Assembly (NCBI GenBank): GCA_004764695.1
Contig: SMSO01000031.1
Span: 4,511,048 to 4,575,047 of the forward strand
DNA length: 64,000 bases
Direction: 5' to 3'
Source: Schizochytrium sp. TIO01
Lineage: Eukaryota; Sar; Bigyra; Thraustochytrida; Thraustochytriidae
This document shows, piece by piece, positions 13,655 to 28,371 of the stretch (the stretch's first letter is position 1; each line of letters starts with the position of its first letter). Position numbers and translations under genes: made by a program. The notes under the pieces were generated by a model. That model did no database searches. It was given only the letters and a program-made list of their open reading frames with translations, and was not told where the DNA came from.

Positions 13655-14422
13655 ATGACGGCAGAAACTGCTAAAAGCGTCACTTATGAATTTGGAAACA
13701 ACTTCTCGAGGAGCGACTATGATAAGAAACTCAAATGCTACGTGTCTGAGCGAGAAGAAGTGGCCTATGTCGATGTAGAGTATAATTCAAAGCCTCGTTC
13801 TACAGCGATCCGCGTAATACATGCACGGAATACCCAATATTTCCTTACCGCGCTTCTTATTTTCGATGTCATCCTCCTTTTCGGGCAGGTTTTTCTTGAT
13901 GCACATTTTCCGCCATGCTACGCAATTACTGCAAATGCAGAGTGTGTTGACGTTAATGGCGTTGAGTCCGATACTGCGCATGTTCATTGCGAGGAACACT
14001 CATATGCTGTAGAGTCGGTGGCTGTGGTCATGTATTTTGCAAGTCTGATCATCCTCAGCATCTTTGAGATCGAACTCGTTGCACTAGTTCTCACTCTCGG
14101 CCCAGTTCAATACCTTCGTAACTTATCTTATTGGCTTGATACGTTTATCATTAACGTTAGCATTGTTCTTGAAGTAGTTCTTCACGAAACTAAGGATGAC
14201 GCTCTTGCGTCTGCGCTTGTTGTAGCTCGTGTTTGGCGTCTCATTCGTATCAGCCATGGTATTTTTACTACCAAGCGCCGTCAGCTTATGGCAAGTATTG
14301 TCGCTGGCCAAGAGCTTGTGAAAAGTGAACCGTGGGAAGAGGTTGACTCGGAAGAAGAGGAAGAGGATAGTCGTCAGTATCGTAAGTCTCGCGTTGCTTC
14401 AGTTCCGGCAACCTCCTTATGA
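13655..14422 (+). CDS. Voltage-gated proton channel (Hv1/HVCN1 family)
   Basis: A 255-residue protein made of a single voltage-sensor domain, expected to conduct H+ across the plasma or vacuolar membrane upon depolarisation. S1 (about 61-81) carries Asp71, which aligns with the selectivity-filter aspartate of human Hv1 (D112), and Asp82, which aligns with D123. S2 (about 122-147) has Glu138 at the E153 position. S3 (about 157-176) has Asp162 at the D174 position. S4 (about 186-203) contains the family signature RVWRLIRI, with Arg192, Arg195 and Arg198 plus the diagnostic Trp194. There is no pore domain. The S4 end has His201 where human Hv1 has Asn214, and S1 has Gln where human has Glu119. 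The S1-S2 loop is long and Cys/His-containing. The C-tail is short and acidic, without an obvious long coiled coil. The ATG is the first in frame and follows an A-rich context. Domain identity is strong; gating is inferred from the family. Confidence 0.93.
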   Translation: MTAETAKSVTYEFGNNFSRSDYDKKLKCYVSEREEVAYVDVEYNSKPRSTAIRVIHARNTQYFLTALLIFDVILLFGQVFLDAHFPPCYAITANAECVDVNGVESDTAHVHCEEHSYAVESVAVVMYFASLIILSIFEIELVALVLTLGPVQYLRNLSYWLDTFIINVSIVLEVVLHETKDDALASALVVARVWRLIRISHGIFTTKRRQLMASIVAGQELVKSEPWEEVDSEEEEEDSRQYRKSRVASVPATSL

Positions 14423-14923: not shown

Positions 14924-17598
14924 TTACTGTTTCACGAGTCTTTTTGATATAAAATCCTGTAGACCTCCCATAAATGTTACAAGAAGTATTTCCTCTGCAA
15001 ATTCATGATCCTTATTATGACCAGAAGCAACGTTATGAGCAAGTTCATGGCAAAAGGTTACGTACCAGTAGCTTTCAATATATCTGCTGGGGTTTCGAGT
15101 TTGTAGCTGAACATGAGCGTACCGTGCATTAAAAAACAACTTGCCACCATAATTAAAAGCGATTCGTTCTGCATCTTCCCAGAATACACGCATACAAGAA
15201 GCGAGATCAGATATATTGAAGACAGATCTCGCTAGATCCGCTATGAATATTGCAAACTCTGACATGAATCTTGCTCGCTCCTGATTGCAACCAAGTGAGA
15301 CAGCCATGTCTACATTTTCTCCTTCATGATATAGAGGTAGTACTGAATTCGGAAATGCAAGTGGTATTAGATTGATGGCACTTTGGCCGGAGCAGTGCGA
15401 TCTCTCAAACTGAAACGAAGCTGGGGCTCCGTTATGGCGAATGGCAGAGAGATATGGATCATTTGCTTGTTGAACTGTGCCATTGAAACAAGCTTGCAAA
15501 AGTGTCGAGTTGCTCTGAGACTCGCCTAATGCCACCCCGCGTTTCTGCTCTGGAATATCTTCTTCAACTGTCTCAATTTCGCTGGAATCTGAAGAGGGCT
15601 GTTTCGACTTATCCAAAGGTGCATGATTTTTTCTCTGTACAGACAAACTTGTAGGAGACTGTTCCGAAGAGTGAGGTAGATTTGCTGAACAATTTCGACC
15701 ATCCGAAGAAGAATGCACAGGATTGGGCAAGATTTGAACTGCATCAAGATCGCTAACTTGATGACGCATCATAGCGATCTTTTGCATCGCATCTAAGTCC
15801 ATTGAGTATCCAACAACCTTTTGCAGACATATCTTTAAAGCCTCAGAATAGTAAAGCATCGTACAACCTCCTCCACAGCGAGTCTCATTCTGCTTTGGGT
15901 CAATACACCTTTTCCCAGAGCTGCAAGACTGCTTTTGTACCCACTTGTGAGTGGCTTCTGGGCTATCGAGCAAAACCATATCTATTGCATAAATTCGCTC
16001 ATTCTGCTGATTCTTCCCTGGAACAACAAGGCGCTGATTCCCAGGTGGAAAACATTTATATACTAGCCTAGTATTCTTCAATGCTTTTTTGAACCAGGCA
16101 ATACCTAAAGAACGAAAACGCTCAGCGGTCTCTTTTGCTTTCGCGTTCGGAGCAACCCAGTCCGGAAGATTATAGACTTGTTCTTCTGCTTTTGCCCAAA
16201 GCTCCACTACATCTGGGCAGTGTTGACTCATCTTCAGTAGTTCATACAATGGCTCAGGCACCTCAACAGGATTGAAGTTAAAGTACTCAGCATCCTGGGC
16301 TTCGTGGACGTCATTACTACGACTCACTCTCTAGCATACTGGATACGGCTCACGCACATTCGCATTCTGCTTTTTGAAAATTGATACTAGCCCATCTGCT
16401 AGAAGATCATAACAGTTCTTGCTAAATTCCCAGCTTGACAAATCTGCAGCCTTGTCTTCCTGCATATCAGATCGCCACTGCGACCCCTCAAGAGCATCAC
16501 GATACTGTATCAGACTGTCTGTTGAGATTTTGACATTACTAAGACTACCCACGTCTCCTGCGCCATCGGGCTTTGCAAGAATGTCATATAAAAACTGAAC
16601 AAGCTTGCCAAAAGTGCTGTCTCGTTGTGTTTGGCTTCCTTCACTCTGATAATGCAAAGACTGAACCAGTATCGGAATCCACGCGATGAGATATCTAACA
16701 GTAATAGAGTCTCGGTCACGCGTGAAGTCGAACAATTTGTGAAGCTTCATTCCTGCCATAAAGTTCAGCCCAAACCCTTTGATATCTTTGCTCTTACATA
16801 CAAATATGCCCCGTGCAAAGACCTTGCCGTGATGCTCTTCGCTAAATAGCACCTCCAAGACGTCGTCACCCACTTTCGGTGTCGGTGGTTGCATAAAGAG
16901 ATAGTTTTCTCTCGGCACTGATAGCTTCACCTTACTCGGGGCTAAGAGACACACTGAATGGTGGTTGCAATTATCGCCAGTGTCTTTTGCTTCAAGAAAC
17001 AGTTTGTTCTGGCTCGAGCCGCCCTCTTTTTCATGGAAAAATCTCCAATGCATCCTTCCTGTAAAAACCTGAACGTCCACATTCCTGGCGACAAGCCTGT
17101 TGATCTCAACTTTCATGCCTTCGCCATACGCCCCTGCAGCAGCCTTGCTTGTTTTTGGCTAAAACCTAAGGTCAGTGCATCTCTGTGGAGCACTGTTGAG
17201 AAATTGGTCAGTTCAATGTAGGTAGATTCTCCCAAGTTCTTCTCTAAAATGAAGCTTGCGATTATGTTACCTTGTTGAAGGGTTCGAACATGATACAACA
17301 GTCTTGTGTTCATATCTACTTGAATGTCCTGAACAAACGACGGCTCGCCTCCCAAAGCCTCTAAGGTCCGATCGTACCAGTTTTGTACGAGTTCACGAAC
17401 TGAGCTGAAGCCATCAATCCAACTCGCATATTGATCGTTCATGTTTAAATCAAAGCGCCCACTATCTGCAGACGTTTGGGTTGTCTGTTGTATATCATTC
17501 CGTACCAAAACGCGTTGTCCTCCGATGGCTTTAGTGAATAGGTCTTGAGTTTCTCGGTTTGTCCATCTTTCAAAGCTGATGTGTTTCGGTTGGCTCAT
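14924..17598 (-). pseudogene. Array copy 1: broken GHKL ATPase-zinc peptidase-like gene
   Basis: Aligning this with the two intact copies shows one gene in three open pieces. Two lesions break it. First, the T run at about 17151-17155 has five T where the others have a six-base tract (tttttt or tctttt), giving a -1 frameshift just before the glycine-rich ATPase motif. Second, at about 16332-16334 a serine codon TCG has become TAG, about halfway along. Downstream of the stop the frame stays open and includes the intact HELAH peptidase motif. The C-terminus differs from the other copies (ends SKRLVKQ). The start is the ATG at 17598, equivalent to that of copy 3. A sequencing error could explain the homopolymer lesion but hardly the substitution, so pseudogene is the simplest reading. 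Separately expressed fragments are possible but less likely. Confidence 0.85.
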
Positions 17599-17670
17599 TT
17601 TGCTTGCTCGGGTTGTTGAAAGGGTGTCTGGTTGCGGCTTTAGTTTCTGAATATGCAAGCGTCTTCGCAA

Positions 17671-18731
17671 TTAGGATCTGCTGTCAGTTGGAAAACGCGA
17701 TCTATTTACTGAGTATATATTGAGTAATCAGTTTTATGCATAGGAGAGACGTACGGTCCTCTCATTACGGAAAATTCTGACTTTTCTCATACTTTAAATT
17801 CCGATTTTGAGGTAAGCTAATTATAGCAAAGAGGTAAGTTGATGTACAATTGATAATGAAAGTACTGTCCTAAAGATTGTTTTTAAGGTACCTGCAGAGG
17901 TCTTTCAACATTTAGAAAAATCCAAGGCTACTTCAAATATTGAATCTTTGGGAGGTTTTACTTCAGCAACCATTTTGACAAAACCAAGTTGAGAACAAGT
18001 CCTGTACACTCACTTTCGCATTATACTCATCTTGTGCAAAAAAAATTGTCGAGCGCTTATATCTCACGAGGGCAGGACTATATATTCAGGTTTCTAGCCA
18101 TGACAAGGTGACAGCATCTTGGAGCGAGAAGAACTCTATTTTCGTCAATAAAACTTACTTTCGAACTGAAAGTTCATGCCGTCAAGCGCTCGGGTATAGT
18201 ATTAATGGTGCCTGCTTTATGAGCTTTAGTCTTGGATCTATGAAATTACTTTACGTCAACTGTAAACTCCGTTGCGGAGTCCGAATCATGAAACTGCCCT
18301 AGTGTTAAGATCGCTAGTTGATTAGAATTAAACATTTTAAGGTCTATTTCTTACCGAGAATTGGGACTTTTCCAAAACGCGAACGATCAGTATCAATGAT
18401 GTCATGAGCCTTTGGTTCACAAAAGAGGCTTTGAAAGTTCTTCTAATGACCCAGCGATCCGCTTACCTTGCGCGAGTTTCGAGGGCATTTGGTTTTGGAA
18501 ACATAAAGGGCCCTCGCAGGAGCATTTTGGCTTTGTACAGATCCTGAGCCATTTATTCTGGCTTCGCCTAGCTCTAATTTATCAGTTCTATGAATGCTAT
18601 TGTAGTTTCGAGACCCTTAAATATGATTATATATATACAAACTTACTCAAGCGTATATAAGCCTCTTGGTTTCAGCGGGGTGAAGATGGTGATTGTGAAG
18701 TGTTCTTACTATAGATTATCTACATAATTTT
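17671..18731. other. Intergenic between array copies 1 and 2
   Basis: The first ~220 bp are the upstream region of copy 1. Only about 100 bp next to the start codon match the upstream regions of copies 2 and 3. From 17889 on, the sequence is the duplicated 3' flank of copy 2, which recurs at 22770-23620. Confidence 0.7.
18108..18302 (+). other. Short ORF in duplicated 3' flank, unit A (doubtful)
   Basis: A 64-codon frame starting MTASWSEKNS, on the strand opposite the array genes. Its counterpart in unit B (22852-23193) is open over 113 codons and nearly identical over the shared part. The conservation may simply reflect the recent duplication. No domain or signal is recognisable. I list it only because it is the sole frame preserved in both flanks. 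Confidence 0.15.
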
Positions 18732-21431
18732 TTAATGGTTGACTTGTGTATTATTCAACCTTCTTGATATAAAGTCATGTAACCCCCCCATATGTGATAC
18801 AAGAAGTATTTCCTCCGCAGACTCATGATCCTTATTATGACCAGAAGCAACGTTATGAGCAAGTTCATGGCAAAAGGTTACGTACCAGTAGCTTTCAATA
18901 TATCTGCTGGGGTTTCGAGTTTGTAGCTGAACATGAGCGTACCGTGCATTAAAAAACAACTTGCCACCATAATTAAAAGCGATTCGTTCTGCATCTTCCC
19001 AGAATACACGCATACAAGAAGCGAGATCAGATATATTGAAGACAGATCTCGCTAGATCCGCTATGAATATTGCAAACTCTGACATGAATCTTGCTCGCTC
19101 CTGATTGCAACCAAGTGAGACAGCCATGTCTACATTTTCTCCTTCATGATATAGAGGTAGTACTGAATTCGGAAATGCAAGTGGTATTAGATTGATGGCA
19201 CTTTGGCCGGAGCAGTGCGATCTCTCAAACTGAAACGAAGCTGGGGCTCCGTTATGGCGAATGGCAGAGAGATATGGATCATTTGCTTGTTGAACTGTGC
19301 CATTGAAACAAGCTTGCAAAAGTGTCGAGTTGCTCTGAGACTCGCCTAATGCCACCCCGCGTTTCTGCTCTGGAACATTTCCCACGACGGTGTTGGGTTT
19401 GTTGAATCCTGGAGAGTGCTGGATTGGTTGATTGGAAGAAGTGTGACTCACGCCCTGTGAAGAAAGGTTTGCAGGAGACGAATTAGAATCATATGCTGTA
19501 TTTGGTGAATGATTTGATCTATTTGCAGAAGAATGCACCGGATCTGGCAAAATTTGAACTGCATCAAGATCGCTAACTTGATGACGCATCATAGCGATCT
19601 TTTGCATCGAGTCTAAGTCCATCGAGTATCCAACAACCTTTTTGAGACATCTCTTCAAAGCCTCGGAATAGTAAAACATCGTACAACCTCCTCCACAACC
19701 AGAAGTCCCGCCCGCACTCTTCTTTTGATCAATACAGTTTTTCTCGGTGTTCCAGGTCTGCTTTTGAATCCACTCGTGAATTTTTCCTGGATGGTTAAGC
19801 AACATCATATCTATTGCATAAATTCGCTCATTCTGCTGATTCTTCCCTGGAACAACAAGGCGTTGGTTCCCAGGTGGAAAATATTTATATACTAGCCTAG
19901 CATCTCCTACGGCTTTCCCGAACCAGGCGATACCTAAAGAACGAAAACGCTCAGCGGTCTCTTTTGCTTTCTCGTTCGGAGGAACCCAGTTCGGAAGATT
20001 ATAGACTTGTTCTTCTGCGTCTCTCCAAAGCTTGGCTAGATCCGGGCAGTGTTGACTCATCTTCAGTAGTTTATACAATGGCTCCGGCACCTCCACAGGA
20101 GTGAAGTTAAAGTATTCAGCATCCTGGGCTTCGTGAATGTCATTACTACGACTAACTCTCGAGCATAGTGGATACGGCTTACGCACATTCCAATTCTGCT
20201 TTTGGAAAATTGATACTATCTCATCTGCTAGAAGATCATAGCAGCTCTTGCTAAATTCCCAGCTAGACAAATCTGCATCCTTGTCTTTCTGCATACCAGA
20301 TCGCCACTGCGGCCCCTCAAGAGCATCACGATAACGTATCAGTCTGTCTGTTGAGATTTTGACATCACTAAGACTATCTAATTCCCCTGCGCCATCGGGC
20401 TTTGCAAGAATGTCATATAAAAACTGAACAAGCTTGCCAAAAGTGCTGTCTCGTTGTGTTTGGCTTCCTTCACTCTGATAATGCAAAGACTGAACCAGTA
20501 TCGGAATCCACGCGATGAGACGTTTAATACGTATAGAGTCTCGGTCACGCGTGAAGTCGAACAATTTGTGAAGCTTCATTCCTGCCATAAAGTTCAGCCC
20601 AAGCCCTTTGATATCTTTGCTCTTGCATACAAATATGCCACGTGCAAAGACCTTGCCGTGATGCTCTTCGCTAAATAGCACCTCCAAGACGTCGTCACCC
20701 ACTTTCGGTGTCGGTGGTTGCATAAAGAGATAGTTTTCTCTCGGTACTGATAGCTTCACCTTACTCGGGGCTAAGAGACACACTGAATGGTGGTTGCAAT
20801 TATCGCCAGTGTCTTTTGCTTCAAGAAACAGTTTGTTCTGGCTCGAACCGCCCTCTTTTTCATGGAAAAATCTCCAATGCATCCTTCCTGTAAAAACCTG
20901 AACATCCACATTCCTAGCGACAAGCCTGTTGATCTCAACTTTCATGCCTTCGCCATACCCCCCTGCAGCAGCCTTGCTCGTCTTTTGGCTAAAACCTAAG
21001 GTCAGTGCATCTCTGTGGAGCACTGTTGAGAAATTGGTCAGTTCAAGGTAGGTAGATTCTCCCAAGTTCTTCTCTAAAATGAAGCTTGCGGTTGTGTTAC
21101 CTTGTTGAAGGGTTCGAACATGATACAACAGTCTTGTGTTCATATCTACTTGAATGTCCTGAACAAACGACGGCTCGCCTCCCAAAACCTCTAAGGTTCG
21201 ATCGTACCAGTTTTGTACGAGTTCACGAACCGAGCTGAAGCCATCAATCCAACTTGCATATTGATCGCTCATGTTTAGATCAAAGCGCCCACTATCTGCA
21301 GACGTTTGGGTTGTCTGTTGTATATCATTCCGTACCAAAACGCGTTGTCCTCTGATGACTTTAGTGAATAGGTCTTGAGATTCTTGGTTTCTCCATCTTT
21401 GAGATCTGATTTTATGTCTTCGTTGGCTCAT
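18732..21431 (-). CDS. Array copy 2: GHKL ATPase-zinc peptidase-like protein
   Basis: An 899-residue protein, intact. Residues about 55-165 carry GHKL ATPase hallmarks: an N-box-like VRELVQNWYDR (Glu, Asn and Asp spaced as in Hsp90/MutL/histidine kinases), then ELTNFSTVLHRDALTLG-type sequence in place of the usual DxGxG box, and a glycine-rich lid motif GGYGEGMK. The middle (about 170-640) is a long unassigned region with CGGGCTM-type cysteines. A low-complexity Ser/Asn/Pro linker follows, then a C-terminal domain with HELAH...GHNKDHE, typical of a zinc-dependent peptidase (Glu as general base). No signal peptide or membrane segment is evident. The linker is unlike that of copies 1 and 3, while the C-terminus matches copy 3. 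The ATG at 21431 is the only good start. The function is unknown; an ATP-gated protease or stress/defence effector is inference only. Confidence 0.85.
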   Translation of the reverse strand: MSQRRHKIRSQRWRNQESQDLFTKVIRGQRVLVRNDIQQTTQTSADSGRFDLNMSDQYASWIDGFSSVRELVQNWYDRTLEVLGGEPSFVQDIQVDMNTRLLYHVRTLQQGNTTASFILEKNLGESTYLELTNFSTVLHRDALTLGFSQKTSKAAAGGYGEGMKVEINRLVARNVDVQVFTGRMHWRFFHEKEGGSSQNKLFLEAKDTGDNCNHHSVCLLAPSKVKLSVPRENYLFMQPPTPKVGDDVLEVLFSEEHHGKVFARGIFVCKSKDIKGLGLNFMAGMKLHKLFDFTRDRDSIRIKRLIAWIPILVQSLHYQSEGSQTQRDSTFGKLVQFLYDILAKPDGAGELDSLSDVKISTDRLIRYRDALEGPQWRSGMQKDKDADLSSWEFSKSCYDLLADEIVSIFQKQNWNVRKPYPLCSRVSRSNDIHEAQDAEYFNFTPVEVPEPLYKLLKMSQHCPDLAKLWRDAEEQVYNLPNWVPPNEKAKETAERFRSLGIAWFGKAVGDARLVYKYFPPGNQRLVVPGKNQQNERIYAIDMMLLNHPGKIHEWIQKQTWNTEKNCIDQKKSAGGTSGCGGGCTMFYYSEALKRCLKKVVGYSMDLDSMQKIAMMRHQVSDLDAVQILPDPVHSSANRSNHSPNTAYDSNSSPANLSSQGVSHTSSNQPIQHSPGFNKPNTVVGNVPEQKRGVALGESQSNSTLLQACFNGTVQQANDPYLSAIRHNGAPASFQFERSHCSGQSAINLIPLAFPNSVLPLYHEGENVDMAVSLGCNQERARFMSEFAIFIADLARSVFNISDLASCMRVFWEDAERIAFNYGGKLFFNARYAHVQLQTRNPSRYIESYWYVTFCHELAHNVASGHNKDHESAEEILLVSHMGGLHDFISRRLNNTQVNH

Positions 21432-22654
21432 TTTGCTTGCTCGGGTTGTTGAAAGGGTGTCTGGTTGAGGCTTTAGTTTCTAAATATGCAAGCGCCTTTG
21501 CGATTGGAACTTGCTGTCCGCTTAAAATATTTGATCTATCTACTTATCTATTGAGTCTACTTCGCTTATTCAGGTCCATATAGAATTAAAAAATGCAATG
21601 TAGAGTTATCCTTTTGGTTGTGAACAGGAACTCCATTTTCTTAAATCGCTAATGACAAATATAATATGATCACAGCAATTAAGTAATCCAGTATACACAT
21701 TTTTATGCTAGCTCTGCTATCTCTAAGTCTGTGGGCTTTGATTGAGCTATTTTTGAACAACAGGATTTGGACTATAGACACTCTCTGGCGAGGGACATAG
21801 GGAGATCGCATGATTTGATTGAATTTCTTTTGAGTGGATTCTGCTTCATCCAACTGTTAAAAACTTGATTCCAAGCTGAGAGCGGTCTGTCTACAGTGTT
21901 TGCTAGAGTGTGAGGCCTGCATATTTTGCCGTGGAGTTACGCTCCTAGCAATCAGACTACTTGTCGAGTGGCTCAGGATACTTAAAGCTTTAGTTCGATG
22001 GTTTATGACAGAACGAGTTCGACAGTACACTTTACAGTATTCGCCTATTCCAGTGGACTTCAGTCAGTCATGATCGAGTCATGATCGATAAATGTAACTG
22101 AAAATGAAAATGGATCAAGTTTAACCCTCACTCTAGTCCTCTGTACCTATAAACTATGTCATTTGCTCTTACTTACGCTTTCGCCCAAGGAAAAGGATTG
22201 ATAGCAGTAATGAGATCGCCCATTAGGCCTTCCGAGCACTAGGTAGTAGGGATATGACTTTGGTGAGACACCTGCTACCCTAGAACTTACGTATGTATCC
22301 AGGTAGGAGGTATTTTGCAAATGGTAAGGAGTCTGATTATAAAGTCTTTCCTTAGACGCAGAGGTTCGGCTGAGGAATCACACCTAGAAGACATCGCAAT
22401 TTGGTTTATTTAGGCGAAGAGGTGGGCGGTTTCTTCGTTCAAGTTATGCATATTCTATGAAGTCAGTGAGTACCGACATACTATCACAAAACTATATGGG
22501 GTGTGTACTTTTCCCCCCATTAACAAATTTTAGTTTCTGATTATTTATGAAGTTCCCCTAGTTACTCCCTAGGCTATCGATAAGAGGATATGAGCATGAA
22601 ACTGAAACCCTATTAGACAGGTGCATCATGTCTTTTCCTGAAACGTTCTAGTAC

Positions 22655-22750
22655 TAAATTTTGAGATAGACAAGTCTGCATCTTTGTCTTCCTGCATACC
22701 AGATCGCCAATGTGACCCCTTTTTTAGAATATCACATCAGACAGCCTGTG
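22655..22750 (-). pseudogene. Relic fragment of a further array gene
   Basis: About 90 bp here match an internal part of the array genes. The segment with GTCTGCATCTTTGTCTTCC and GCATACCAGATCGCCA is nearly the same as 25145-25195 of copy 3, and the similarity continues weakly into CATCA..AGAC.G. It lies exactly at the junction of units A and B, which suggests the scar of a deleted or recombined fourth copy. Confidence 0.7.
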
Positions 22751-22851
22751 CAACTTTCGGTATTACTTATACCTGCAGAGGTCTTTCAACATTTAGAAAA
22801 ATCCGAGGTTACTTCAAACATTGAATCTTTGGGAGGTTTTAGATCTTCTTC

Positions 22852-23193
22852 TTGAGCAACCACTTTGACAAAACCAAGTTGAGAGCAAGTCCTGTACACT
22901 CACTTTCGCATTATACTCATCTTGTGCAAAAAAAAATTGTCGAGCGCTTATATCTCACGAGGGCAGGAATATATATTCAGGTTTCTAGCCATGACAAGGT
23001 GACAGCATCTTGGAGCGAGAAGAACTCTATTTTCGTCAATAAAACTTACTTTCGAACTGAAGGTTCATGCCGTCAAGCGCTCGGGTATAGTATTAATGGT
23101 GACTACTTTATGAGCTTTAGTCTTGGATCTATGAAATTACTTTACGTCAACTGTAAACTCCGTTGCAGAGTCCGGATCATGAAACTGCCCTAG
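22852..23193 (+). other. Short ORF in duplicated 3' flank, unit B (doubtful)
   Basis: A 113-codon frame, the longer counterpart of 18108-18302. In unit A the N-terminal half is not in one frame because of a one-base difference in an A run (ttgtgcaaaaaa). No recognisable domain. It is probably not a gene. Confidence 0.15.
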
Positions 23194-23620
23194 TGTTAAG
23201 ATCGCTAGTTGATTAGCAATAAACATTTTAAGGTCTATTTCTTACCGAGAATTGGGACTTTTCCAAAAAGCGAACCATCAGTAACAATGATGTCATGAGC
23301 CTTTGGTTCACAAAAGAGGCTTTCAAAGTTCTTCTAATGACCCAGCGATCCGCTTACCTTGCGCAAGTTTCGAGGGCATTTGGTTTTGGAAACAGAAAGG
23401 GCCCTCGCAGGAGCATTGGCTTTGTACAGATCCTGAGCCATTTATTCTGGCTTCGCCTAGCTCTAATTTATCAGTTCTATGAATGCTATTGTAGTTTCGA
23501 GACCCTTAAATATGATTATATATATACAAGCTTACTCAAGCGTATATAAGCCTCTTGGTTTCAGCGGGGTGAAGATGGTGATTGTGAAGTGTTCTTACTA
23601 TGGATTATCTACATAAATTT

Positions 23621-26308
23621 TTAATGGTTGACTTGTGTATTATTCAACCTTCTTGATATAAAGTCATGTAACCCCCCCATATGTGATACAAGAAGTATTT
23701 CCTCCGCAGACTCATGATCCTTATTATGACCAGAAGCAACGTTATGAGCAAGTTCATGGCAAAAGGTTACGTACCAGTAGCTTTCAATATATCTGCTGGG
23801 GTTTCGAGTTTGTAGCTGAACATGAGCGTACCGTGCATTAAAAAACAACTTGCCACCATAATTAAAAGCGATTCGTTCTGCATCTTCCCAGAATACACGT
23901 ATACAAGAAGCGAGATCAGATATATTGAAGACAGATTTCGCTAGATCCGCTATGAATATTGCAAACTCTGACATGAATCTTGCTCGCTCCTGATTGCAAC
24001 CAAGTGAGACAGCCATGTCTACATTTTCTCCTTCATGATATAGAGGTAGTACTGAATTCGGAAATGCAAGTGGTATTAGATTCATGGCACTTTGGCCGGA
24101 GCAGTGCGATCTCTCAAATTGAAACGAAGCTGGGGCTCCGTTATGGCGAATGGCAGAGAGATATGGATCATTTGCTTGTTGAACTGTGCCATTGAAACAA
24201 GCTTGCAAAAGTGTCGCGTTGCTCTGAGACTCGCCTAATGCGACCCCGCGTTTCTGCTCTGGAATATCTTCTTCAACTGTCTCAATTTCGCTGGAATCTG
24301 AAGAGGGCTGTTTCGACTTATCCAAAGGTGCATGATTTTTTCTCTGTACAGACAAACTTGTAGGAGACTGTTCCGAAGAGTGAGGTAGATTTGCGGAACA
24401 ATTTAGACCATCCGAAGAAGAATGCACAGGATTGGGCAAGATTTGAACTGCATCAAGATCGCTAACTTGATGACGCATCATAGCGATCTTTTGCATCGCA
24501 TCTAAGTCCATCGAGTATCCAACAACCTTTTGCAGACATATCTTTAAAGCCTCAGAATAGTAAAGCATCGTACAACCTCCTCCACAGTGAGTCTCATTCT
24601 GCTTTGGGTCAATACACTTTTTCCCAGAGCTGCAAGACTGCTTTTGTACCCACTTGTGAGTGGCTTCTGGGCTATCGAGCAAAACCATATCTATTGCATA
24701 AATTCGCTCATTCTGCTGATTCTTCCCTGGAACAACAAGGCGCTGATTCCCAGGTGGAAAACATTTATATACTAGCCTAGTATTCTTCAATGCTTTTTCG
24801 AACCAGGTAATACCTAAAGAACGAAAACGCTCAGCGGTCTCTTTTGCTTTCTCGTTCGGAGCAACCCAGTCCGGAAGATTATAGACTTGTTCTTCTGCTT
24901 TTGCCCAAAGCTTCACTACATCCGGGCAGTGTTGACTCATCTTCAGTAGTTTATACAATGGCTCCGGCACCTCAACAGGATTGAAGTTAAAGTACTCAGC
25001 ATCCTGGGCTTCGTGGACGTCATTACTACGACTCACTCTCGAGCATACTGGATACGGCTCACGCACATTCGCATTCTGCTTTTTGAAAATTGATACTAGC
25101 CCATCTGCTAGAAGATCATAGCAGCTCTTGCTAAATTCCCAGCTAGACAAATCTGCATCCTTGTCTTTCTGCATACCAGATCGCCACTGCGACCCCTCAA
25201 GGGCATCACGATACTGTATTAGACTGTCTGTTGAGATTTTGACATTACTAAGACTACCCACGTCTCCTGCGCCATCGGGCTTTGCAAGAATGTCATATAA
25301 AAACTGAACAAGCTTGCCAAAAGTGCTGTCTCGTTGTGTTTGGCTTCCTTCACTCTGATAATACAAACACTGAACCAGTATTGGAATCCACGCAATGAGA
25401 TATCTAACAGTAATAGAGTCTCGGTCACGCGTGAAGTCGAACAATTTGTGAAGCTTCATTCCTGCCATAAAGTTCAGCCCAAGCCCTTTGATGTCTTTGC
25501 TCTTGCATACAAATATGCCCCGTGCAAAGACCTTGCCGTGATGCTCTTCGCTAAATAGCACCTCCAAGACGTCGTCACCCACTTTCGGTGTCGGTGGTTG
25601 CATAAAGAGATAGTTTTCTCTCGGCACTGATAGCTTCACCTTACTCGGGGCTAAGAGACACACTGAATGGTGGTTGCAATTATCACCAGTGTCTTTTGCT
25701 TCAAGAAACAGTTTGTTCTGGCTCGAACCGCCCTCTTTTTCATGGAAAAATCTCCAATGCATCCTTCCTGTAAAAACCTGAACGTCCACATTCCTAGCGA
25801 CAAGCCTGTTGATCTCAACTTTCATGCCTTCGCCATACGCCCCTGCAGCAGCCTTGCTTGTTTTTTGGCTAAAACCTAAGGTCAGTGCATCTCTGTGGAG
25901 CACTGTTGAGAAATTGGTCAGTTCAATGTAGGTAGATTCTCCCAAGTTCTTCTCTAAAATGAAGCTTGCGGTTGTGTTACCTTGTTGAAGGGTTCGAACA
26001 TGATACAACAGTCTTGTGTTCATATCTACTTGAATGTCCTGAACAAACGACGGCTCGCCTCCCAAAACCTCTAAGGTCCGATCGTACCAGTTTTGTACGA
26101 GTTCACGAACTGAGCTGAAGCCATCAATCCAACTCGCATATTGATCGTTCATGTTTAGATCAAAGCGCCCACTATCTGCAGACGTTTGTGTTGTCTGTTG
26201 TATATCATTCCGTACCAAAACGCGTTGTCCTCCGATGGCTTTAGTGAATAGGTCTTGAGTTTCTCGGTTTGTCCATCTTTCAAAGCTGATGTGTTTCGGT
26301 TGGCTCAT
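23621..26308 (-). CDS. Array copy 3: GHKL ATPase-zinc peptidase-like protein
   Basis: An 895-residue intact protein counted from the ATG at 26308. An upstream TTG extension of 24 residues exists but I do not use it. ATPase region: Glu69, Asn73 and Asp76 in the N-box-like motif; Gly159, Glu160, Gly161 and Lys163 in the glycine-rich lid motif. Peptidase region: HELAH at 851-855, with His861 and His865 as candidate third zinc ligands and Glu866 beside them. The middle contains a Cys-rich patch (HCGGGCTM) and an acidic/Ser-rich linker shared with copy 1 but not copy 2. The last ~180 residues are almost identical in all copies. The family usually seen with such a GHKL core is the Hsp90/MutL/sacsin group; fusion to a zincin-like tail is what stands out. 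Biochemical activity is inferred from motifs, not known. Confidence 0.85.
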   Translation of the reverse strand: MSQPKHISFERWTNRETQDLFTKAIGGQRVLVRNDIQQTTQTSADSGRFDLNMNDQYASWIDGFSSVRELVQNWYDRTLEVLGGEPSFVQDIQVDMNTRLLYHVRTLQQGNTTASFILEKNLGESTYIELTNFSTVLHRDALTLGFSQKTSKAAAGAYGEGMKVEINRLVARNVDVQVFTGRMHWRFFHEKEGGSSQNKLFLEAKDTGDNCNHHSVCLLAPSKVKLSVPRENYLFMQPPTPKVGDDVLEVLFSEEHHGKVFARGIFVCKSKDIKGLGLNFMAGMKLHKLFDFTRDRDSITVRYLIAWIPILVQCLYYQSEGSQTQRDSTFGKLVQFLYDILAKPDGAGDVGSLSNVKISTDSLIQYRDALEGSQWRSGMQKDKDADLSSWEFSKSCYDLLADGLVSIFKKQNANVREPYPVCSRVSRSNDVHEAQDAEYFNFNPVEVPEPLYKLLKMSQHCPDVVKLWAKAEEQVYNLPDWVAPNEKAKETAERFRSLGITWFEKALKNTRLVYKCFPPGNQRLVVPGKNQQNERIYAIDMVLLDSPEATHKWVQKQSCSSGKKCIDPKQNETHCGGGCTMLYYSEALKICLQKVVGYSMDLDAMQKIAMMRHQVSDLDAVQILPNPVHSSSDGLNCSANLPHSSEQSPTSLSVQRKNHAPLDKSKQPSSDSSEIETVEEDIPEQKRGVALGESQSNATLLQACFNGTVQQANDPYLSAIRHNGAPASFQFERSHCSGQSAMNLIPLAFPNSVLPLYHEGENVDMAVSLGCNQERARFMSEFAIFIADLAKSVFNISDLASCIRVFWEDAERIAFNYGGKLFFNARYAHVQLQTRNPSRYIESYWYVTFCHELAHNVASGHNKDHESAEEILLVSHMGGLHDFISRRLNNTQVNH

Positions 26309-28371
26309 TTTGCTTGCTCGGGTTGTTGAAAGGGTGTCTGGTTGAGGCTTTAGTTTCTGAATATGCAAGCGTCTTTGCAATTGGGGTCTGCTGTCGGTGA
26401 GGGAAACTTGTTTGCCATGTTGATTAAGTCTACTTTATTCTAGCCCATGTAAAATAAGAATGCATTCTGTGCAGCTATGCTTTAATTACAGAAAGTTTGT
26501 TGTTTCAAATAGCCAAAGTCAATTTAAGCTAATATAACCAATGATACAAGTAATTTTGTGCACACGCTGTATGTATCTTTAGGCGTTGCTCAAGGGTTGT
26601 AGGCTTTGGTTGAGCTTTAGTTCAACGTCAGGAATTGGGGTAAATGTATTTTGCCAAAGATTTTATGATTTGGGCAGGAAGAATTGTTTCAAGATGAACT
26701 CTGTTCCTTCAAAGTAGAAATTGATCCCGCCTTGTCCTCAAGAGTCTGACTGCGTCTTGCTCATTATTCGCGGTTTCAACCTTGACTCTTGGACTTATAG
26801 AGGCCTTAATAGCCCGTGCAAGGTTTTGCCGCGGGATTCGATCAGTAATGCTGCGCTAGACTCAAGGTTGCTGGTCGAGTTTTCCAGCACATTTGTCAAA
26901 ATCTCAAAAGCAATAGAAAGAGCTGTAGCAACAGCACCTGCATGTTTATCACATAAGATCGCAGTCAGTCAGTCGTGATCGCTACAACAGCCATTGTGAA
27001 AATGGACCAAGTTCATTTTTTACCTCACTCTAAACTCCTCTGCTTCAATGCAATGTAATTTTGTTCACTGTGTCTCACTCAGCATACAATAATTTAATGT
27101 TTTATATTTAATTTCAAATGTTATTTGAAAAAAAAAAACAAAAAAAAAAACGGATTGAACGTTGCATGTCTCCATTAATCTGTTCATTGAAGAAGTAACT
27201 CAGGTCAATATGAGAGGTTCCTATAAAAGCTCTCATTTCTATATCACTTTTAGTATCGGGCGATCTGAAATCCCTATGTAAACTTTGGACAATATAAAAT
27301 CGCATTCTTGTAACTCCCGAAGGTAGTGAGGCATGCACCATGACCGATGGCGTCAACTGTATTTTAGGATATGATTATGTAAGAATTTATCAAGTCATCC
27401 AGTTTCAAACATGCAGACATGGAATTGGAAAAAGAAACCTTTTTTCATGGCTGCTGTAGCCCAAGTGATAAGAAATCGAGCATCTAACAGTATGCACATA
27501 ACAGCAGGTATCACGAAGTCAATTGTAGAAAACACCATAGATACCGCAGTACCACTAGCATTTATCTGTTAATTGTACTTGAAGAAAGCAACATGAGAGA
27601 TCGCTTGGCTTGAGATGCTACCCATGGAACTATACCCAAGTTGAAGGACGCCTCAACTCTTAGTAAGAGTGAATAGCCTAGGTTGTTCGACACAGATATT
27701 AGTATTTACTAGAGAGGGGGTACCTACCTATATCAGCCAATACCGAGTTTACACTGGCTTAAAGTGGGTGTGTGTACCTTCCCCAGCTAACAAATTTTGT
27801 TTGCTGATTAGGCATAATGGTTCCCTAGTTACTACTTAGGCTACCAGTCTGAGTGGATGAGAAGATATGGGCATGAAACAGGTGCATCGTGCCTTCTCCT
27901 GGAAGCTTCTGGTACTACTTACTAACACTCCTTACTAACTTACATAGTAGGCACTGCAAAGGTCGAATCTTCGTTCTTAAAAGCGTAGCTCTAAGCTACA
28001 TACTCTGGCCATCACCCACCAAAACCAGCTTGGCAGCCCATGCTACTTACTATACAGACACCATCGTATTTTGCGATGACCAGGCCATTCAAAATCCGAA
28101 AGTGTATGGAGAGCTATCAAATGGGCTAGTAATCACAGTTCCAAGGCTCTCAGACAGAATTACTATTTATGTAAAAAAAGACTAAGTGATCAGCGTTACC
28201 TTCTGAATGCTTAACACTTGGGAAACACTTCTGATGGGTTGGGGCGCGTACAAACTCAAGCATGCAAGGTAAAACCCAAATACAACATTCAGGGAATGGC
28301 CAATATATATAGCAGCAGACTTTAGAGCTTCGAGAGGCATCCATTCTAGCTTCCATTAACCTCTATTTGCA
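26309..28371. other. Intergenic, array copy 3 to membrane-protein gene
   Basis: The first ~100 bp match the upstream regions of copies 1 and 2 and probably hold the promoter and 5' UTR of copy 3. The rest is the diverged upstream part of unit B, then unique sequence after about 27916. A poly-A-rich stretch lies at 27128-27150. I see no gene. Confidence 0.6.

Follow-up and report, generated by a model that had tools for sequence, protein, structure and literature searches.

Three homologous genes, two intact and one broken, lie head to tail on the minus strand of the window, the 64,000-nucleotide stretch of Schizochytrium sp. TIO01 DNA analysed here. Their products join a GHKL-type head to a zincin-like C-terminal tail. 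We consider, with a probability of about 0.5, that they are intracellular nucleotide-gated GHKL-zincin peptidases of the WLM/Wss1 sort and a eukaryotic variant of a broader architecture. The fusion recurs in a DUF3684 protein of the same genome (P0009), in bacteria, in haloarchaea and in one phage, and the uniqueness implied by the original prediction is lost.

Organization and history of the array

The array and the duplicated unit within it are laid out as follows.

14924..17670, minus strand: copy A, disrupted and pseudogene-like (three ORFs across two frames)
18732..21431, minus strand: copy B, intact, 899 aa (single ATG-started ORF)
23621..26308, minus strand: copy C, intact, 895 aa when started at the ATG that corresponds to the start of copy B
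17889..21507, minus strand: duplicated unit (copy B and the DNA downstream of it), matching 22770-26384 (copy C) at 93.2% identity by self-BLAST

The frame of copy C stays open to 26380 (TTG), and self-BLAST similarity between the coding copies stops at about 26395, short of the 27916 originally given as the end of the array. Three paralogues of about 900 residues had been predicted; the tandem homology stands, but the count falls to two intact genes and a frameshifted copy with a stop. A tblastn-type search of the 64 Mb, 37-contig assembly revealed no copies beyond A, B and C; copy B matched itself at 100% and copy C at 87% in the genome search. The window is eukaryotic nuclear DNA, in which the array has as neighbors genes for a PCI-domain protein, a DnaJ-ankyrin protein, a DNA ligase, an M76 peptidase, a sulfatase and Gle1. 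Because the flanks (PCI, DNA ligase, M76, Gle1) are ordinary cellular genes, a location inside an endogenised virus was rejected. Adjoining the array, positions 13655-14422 encode a 255-residue ion-channel-like protein (Ion_trans, E = 5e-6) that resembles a voltage-gated proton channel.

Copy A carries a one-base frameshift near 17153 (a one-base gap at alignment column 567) and an in-frame TAG at 16331-16333, where TCG has changed to TAG (PYPVC-stop). A base-calling error might account for the frameshift but is a less likely source of the TAG. Copies A and C are 97.9% identical in nucleotide sequence (dS about 0.03-0.04), and since their dN/dS is still near 0.3, copy A must have broken recently. 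Copy A resembles the other two essentially over the coding region alone, and the unit that B and C have in common runs to 3.6 kb and takes in downstream DNA. The B-C comparison is a mosaic: the head core and the tail are about 97-100% identical, whereas identity across the middle is about 64-93% and drops to its minimum (~64%) in one stretch. Synonymous sites follow the same pattern, with dS between 0 and 0.08 toward the ends against 0.27-0.30 for the middle, and we therefore prefer gene conversion of the ends to an explanation by selection alone. The recent amplification that had been proposed therefore holds for the A/C pair but not for the mosaic copy B, with its dS of up to 0.30.

The middle region is loosely constrained (B-C dN/dS about 0.5-0.6), and this fast-changing part may serve in recognition. 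With copy A broken and a B-C dN/dS of 0.52 overall, the array could be taken for a decaying family of little function that recent duplication and gene conversion maintain for now. The head core (aa 150-300) differs between B and C by seven synonymous changes and one non-synonymous change (dN/dS 0.04), and the catalytic motifs are intact in both copies, which makes decay improbable in our view.

The N-terminal head is GHKL-type

The features of the head are given for copy B.

20637..21296, minus strand: GHKL (Bergerat-type) ATP-binding domain, aa 46-265 (profile and predicted structure)
21201..21224, minus strand: N-box ELVQNWYD (E70, N74, D77), aa 70-77 (alignment with relatives)
20940..20963, minus strand: lid GGYGEGMK, aa 157-164 (alignment with relatives)
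20472..20642, minus strand: transducer-like segment, G-[IL]-F-V-C and RDR, aa ~264-320

No GHKL domain was detected by Pfam in the array proteins, NCBIfam and PADLOC gave no useful match for them, and a PDB sequence search with copy B gave none. The profile of phrog_6077, a phage 'histidine kinase-like ATPase' family found in Vibrio phages, Acinetobacter phage ABPH49 and Pseudomonas phage Epa43, matched the array at E = 5.9e-16 and 1.1e-14 (profile positions 43-218 of 366). The stronger match spans aa 126-301 of copy B, within the head alone. The phage proteins are about 350-400 aa long, and those read have no HExxH tail. Both they and the array proteins belong to one GHKL subfamily, marked by RExxQNxxD, LGxSxK, GxGEGxK, GLFVC and RDR and by the lack of DxGxG. 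Elsewhere, a search of genome contigs found a single head of the phage type, in a Burkholderiales bin; scans of viral contigs (with copy B and with the tail alignment) returned no relatives, and a plasmid tblastn with copy B returned no match. A weak phrog_6077 match on contig C34 (E = 0.35) was rejected as such a gene, there being no ORF of at least 400 aa at that place.

In an alignment of copies B and C with 11 phage and bacterial relatives, E70, N74 and D77 of the N-box are invariant; among the phage relatives read, one has the Asn replaced. The lid residues G157, G160, E161, G162 and K164 are invariant and fit GxxGxG (G157-x-x-G160-E-G162), as are G265, D296 and R297 of the transducer-like segment; RDR is kept by the phage relatives with one exception. 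The motifs named in the original prediction were all found in copy B (ELVQNWYD at 70-77, GGYGEGMK at 157-164 and the zincin-like HELAH motif from 855). Its residue numbers, Asn73 and Glu852, require correction to N74 and E856.

The DxGxG (G1) box is absent, and LTNFSTVL occupies its place. The Asp of this box contacts adenine; its replacement by Thr/Asn leaves nucleotide binding, or its specificity, uncertain. The replacement had been called unusual, and it is real but not peculiar to these genes: DxGxG is kept in none of the phage relatives aligned, and Vibrio phage 501E54-1 has LTNPDTKL at the position. The LTNFSTVL stretch is thus a trait of the branch. We considered whether the head might be a pseudo-ATPase (binding no ATP, or some other ligand instead) and the whole a ligand-sensing protease. 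Such a reading would account for a box that is missing from every aligned phage relative yet present in most full-length prokaryotic fusions, but the residues on the Mg/phosphate side (E70, N74, the lid glycines and K164) are conserved, and we judge it unlikely.

An AlphaFold model built with the phage relatives is confident only over about aa 46-265 (pLDDT mostly 55-89). Hsp90, Grp94 and TRAP1 fill the VIA-align list for this model, headed by the Grp94 N-domain (Z = 9.9, 141 residues); a match to the N and middle domains of TRAP1 reaches aa 349 (Z = 9.0). Foldseek alone, run with the whole 899-residue model, found nothing significant (best E = 0.05), and the Bergerat fold, for which a structural check had been proposed, is accordingly supported with moderate confidence. 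On the fold and the remaining motifs, the head is GHKL-type despite the missing DxGxG. Its predicted structure resembles Hsp90, Grp94 and TRAP1 in fold across the N-terminal domain and perhaps across the middle domain too, with no sequence match above threshold. Unlike these chaperones, the array proteins lack DxGxG and carry a zincin-like tail.

The zincin-like tail and a DUF3684 protein of the same genome

The tail is defined by a single short motif.

18837..18869, minus strand: copy B zincin-like motif HELAHNVASGH (H855, E856, H859, H865) (motif and DUF3684 tail homology)

Residues 855-870 of copy B read HELAHNVASGHNKDHE. The HExxHxxxxxH pattern has the ligand spacing of the WLM/Wss1 proteases (PF08325) and shares their HEL.HN context. 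Pfam WLM matched aa 851-868 of copy B at E = 0.0064, a match of 18 residues that, at 17 bits, lies below the curated cut-off of 26. When a profile of the array and DUF3684 tails was run against the PDB, the sole match was a weak one to 5jig, a fission-yeast WLM protease (E = 0.85). Bona fide WLM genes are present separately in the same genome. An AlphaFold model of the tail alone was unusable (pLDDT 37); motif and homology suggest that the tail binds zinc. Searching 398 bacterial genomes with a profile of the tail gave no match; lacking a positive control, this search is uninformative.

A weak WLM match in the genome led to P0009 (C31:7429957-7436310; L024:458-6811), a 2117-residue DUF3684 protein (PF12449, E = 1e-126) in one open frame. 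A sacsin-type GHKL head (PF25794, E = 8e-17) forms its N-terminus, and HELAHNHKGEH lies close to the C-terminal end. Over its last ~130 residues the protein aligns with the array tail at E = 3e-7 (pairwise blastp); with the motif removed the alignment still scores 71, against a shuffle mean of 29, a value reached by 0 of 2000 shuffles. This tail falls outside the Pfam DUF3684 model, and copies B and C do not match the DUF3684 profile. P0009 and the array proteins thus have in common an N-terminal GHKL domain, a long middle and a homologous tail, although P0009 is more than twice as long. Pairwise, their heads are similar only at shuffle level, so either head exchange or deep divergence separates them. 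The two-domain reading of the array proteins is supported at both ends, by profile and structure comparison for the head and by HExxHxxxxxH and DUF3684 homology for the tail.

The sacsin-type head of P0009 raises an alternative, a chaperone-like clamp as in sacsin with a tail that is catalytically dead or structural and binds substrate or zinc without cutting. The array's WLM score below the cut-off agrees with it, and peptidase activity of the tail is itself a prediction. In copies A, B and C and in the DUF3684 protein, the HExxH Glu, both His residues and the third His are all kept, unlike a decayed site. We regard the clamp as possible but doubtful, and favor a peptidase.

GHKL-HExxH fusions in prokaryotes

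Compact fusions of a GHKL head to HExxH, of about 470-1100 residues, occur in bacteria and haloarchaea and in a single phage. Two came from scanning bacteria with phrog_6077: P0011 (524 aa), which lacks DxGxG and has the tail HELAHAFGGDGSKTF, and a 471-residue protein that keeps DFGRG and has the tail HELIHAKTGHDDVTREFE. Plasmid relatives of the latter, 41-48% identical and most of them over nearly the full length, were found in Priestia, Croceicoccus, Salinibacter, Euzebya and haloarchaea; where annotated, they are called 'ATP-binding protein' or 'hypothetical'. Moorella phage MTATph1 carries one fusion. An Alkaliphilus plasmid (L061:1943-5257) encodes 1104 residues with three GHKL units followed by one C-terminal HExxH, a layout like a miniature sacsin, and Aneurinibacillus has a multi-GHKL form as well. 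The 471-residue type is present in 2 of 398 genomes (a sample of one phylum) and is therefore sparse; the survey that had been proposed for the fusion gave scattered occurrences across bacteria, haloarchaea, a phage and the Schizochytrium genome itself. On Citrobacter braakii pF217-3 (L067:4025-4372), a short ORF matches the HExxH tail alone (50% identity); it is flanked on both sides by insertion sequences and is possibly a truncated remnant.

Like the array proteins, the prokaryotic fusions combine a GHKL head with a C-terminal HExxH tail, and several open with FDLN...W...RELxxNxxD, as the array does. Most full-length forms keep DxGxG (as DFGRG or DDGPG), among them those of Croceicoccus, Salinibacter, Euzebya and Natrinema and the multi-GHKL forms, whereas the array lacks it. 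In contrast to the array they have no 400-residue middle, being either 446-482 aa long or multi-headed, and D/TREFE (HExxH...D.TREFE) stands in place of the third His. Similarity of their tails to the array tail is confined to the motif region; upstream of the motif, array and P0011 tails are similar only at shuffle level. The array and DUF3684 heads likewise compare at shuffle level, so the fusion as a whole need not go back to a single ancestor.

Some fusion genes have neighbors with a role in defense. On Salinibacter ruber pSR56 (L059:949-9204), the fusion gene lies between S and R of a type I restriction-modification set, and a gene for an SprT-family metalloprotease follows the set. The fusion gene on a Natrinema zhouii plasmid (L063:3983-8923) lies two positions upstream of the gene for a long prokaryotic Argonaute (PADLOC pAgo, 1079 bits), and in Halorussus the neighbors are a methyltransferase and a DEAD-box helicase. 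The remaining loci inspected have no clear defense neighbors, and the link at these three is consequently only a lead.

Proposed mechanism and implications

In GHKL proteins such as Hsp90, MutL and MORC, the Glu and Asn of the N-box and the lid support nucleotide-driven closure. By analogy, the Hsp90-type head of the array proteins would bind nucleotide with Mg2+. Lid closure and dimerization of the head would then shift the position of the C-terminal HExxHxxxxxH peptidase-like domain, and cleavage of a bound protein would depend on the nucleotide state. With E70, N74 and the lid glycines retained, along with the residues of HExxHxxxxxH, we judge a nucleotide-gated zinc peptidase the most likely reading. 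Use of ATP, clamping as a dimer, binding of zinc and proteolysis are inferred, as would be any role in stress or conflict; for a conflict role, the case is circumstantial and comes from the neighbors of distant prokaryotic relatives. More tentatively, and with considerable doubt on our part, the array might be the eukaryotic arm of an unrecognized, tree-wide GHKL-zincin class derived from prokaryotic anti-invader systems and, in this protist, duplicated in tandem, with head and tail homogenized by gene conversion and a middle that has diversified and possibly recognizes targets.

The fusion is thus real without being unique to the array, and the widespread architecture of which the array is a eukaryotic variant is apparently undescribed. 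The same genome encodes a member of a named Pfam family, DUF3684, with equal domain order. In the open-access literature searched, the term DUF3684 is absent and no description was found of GHKL fused to a zincin or WLM domain, which does not of itself prove undescribed status. If the proposed mechanism is true, GHKL-zincins would be proteases switched by an Hsp90-type clamp and not by an AAA+ ring, and would form a class with a sparse distribution that takes in bacteria, archaea, a phage and a eukaryote. The compact prokaryotic forms of ~470 residues would allow the gating idea to be tested directly in laboratory strains.
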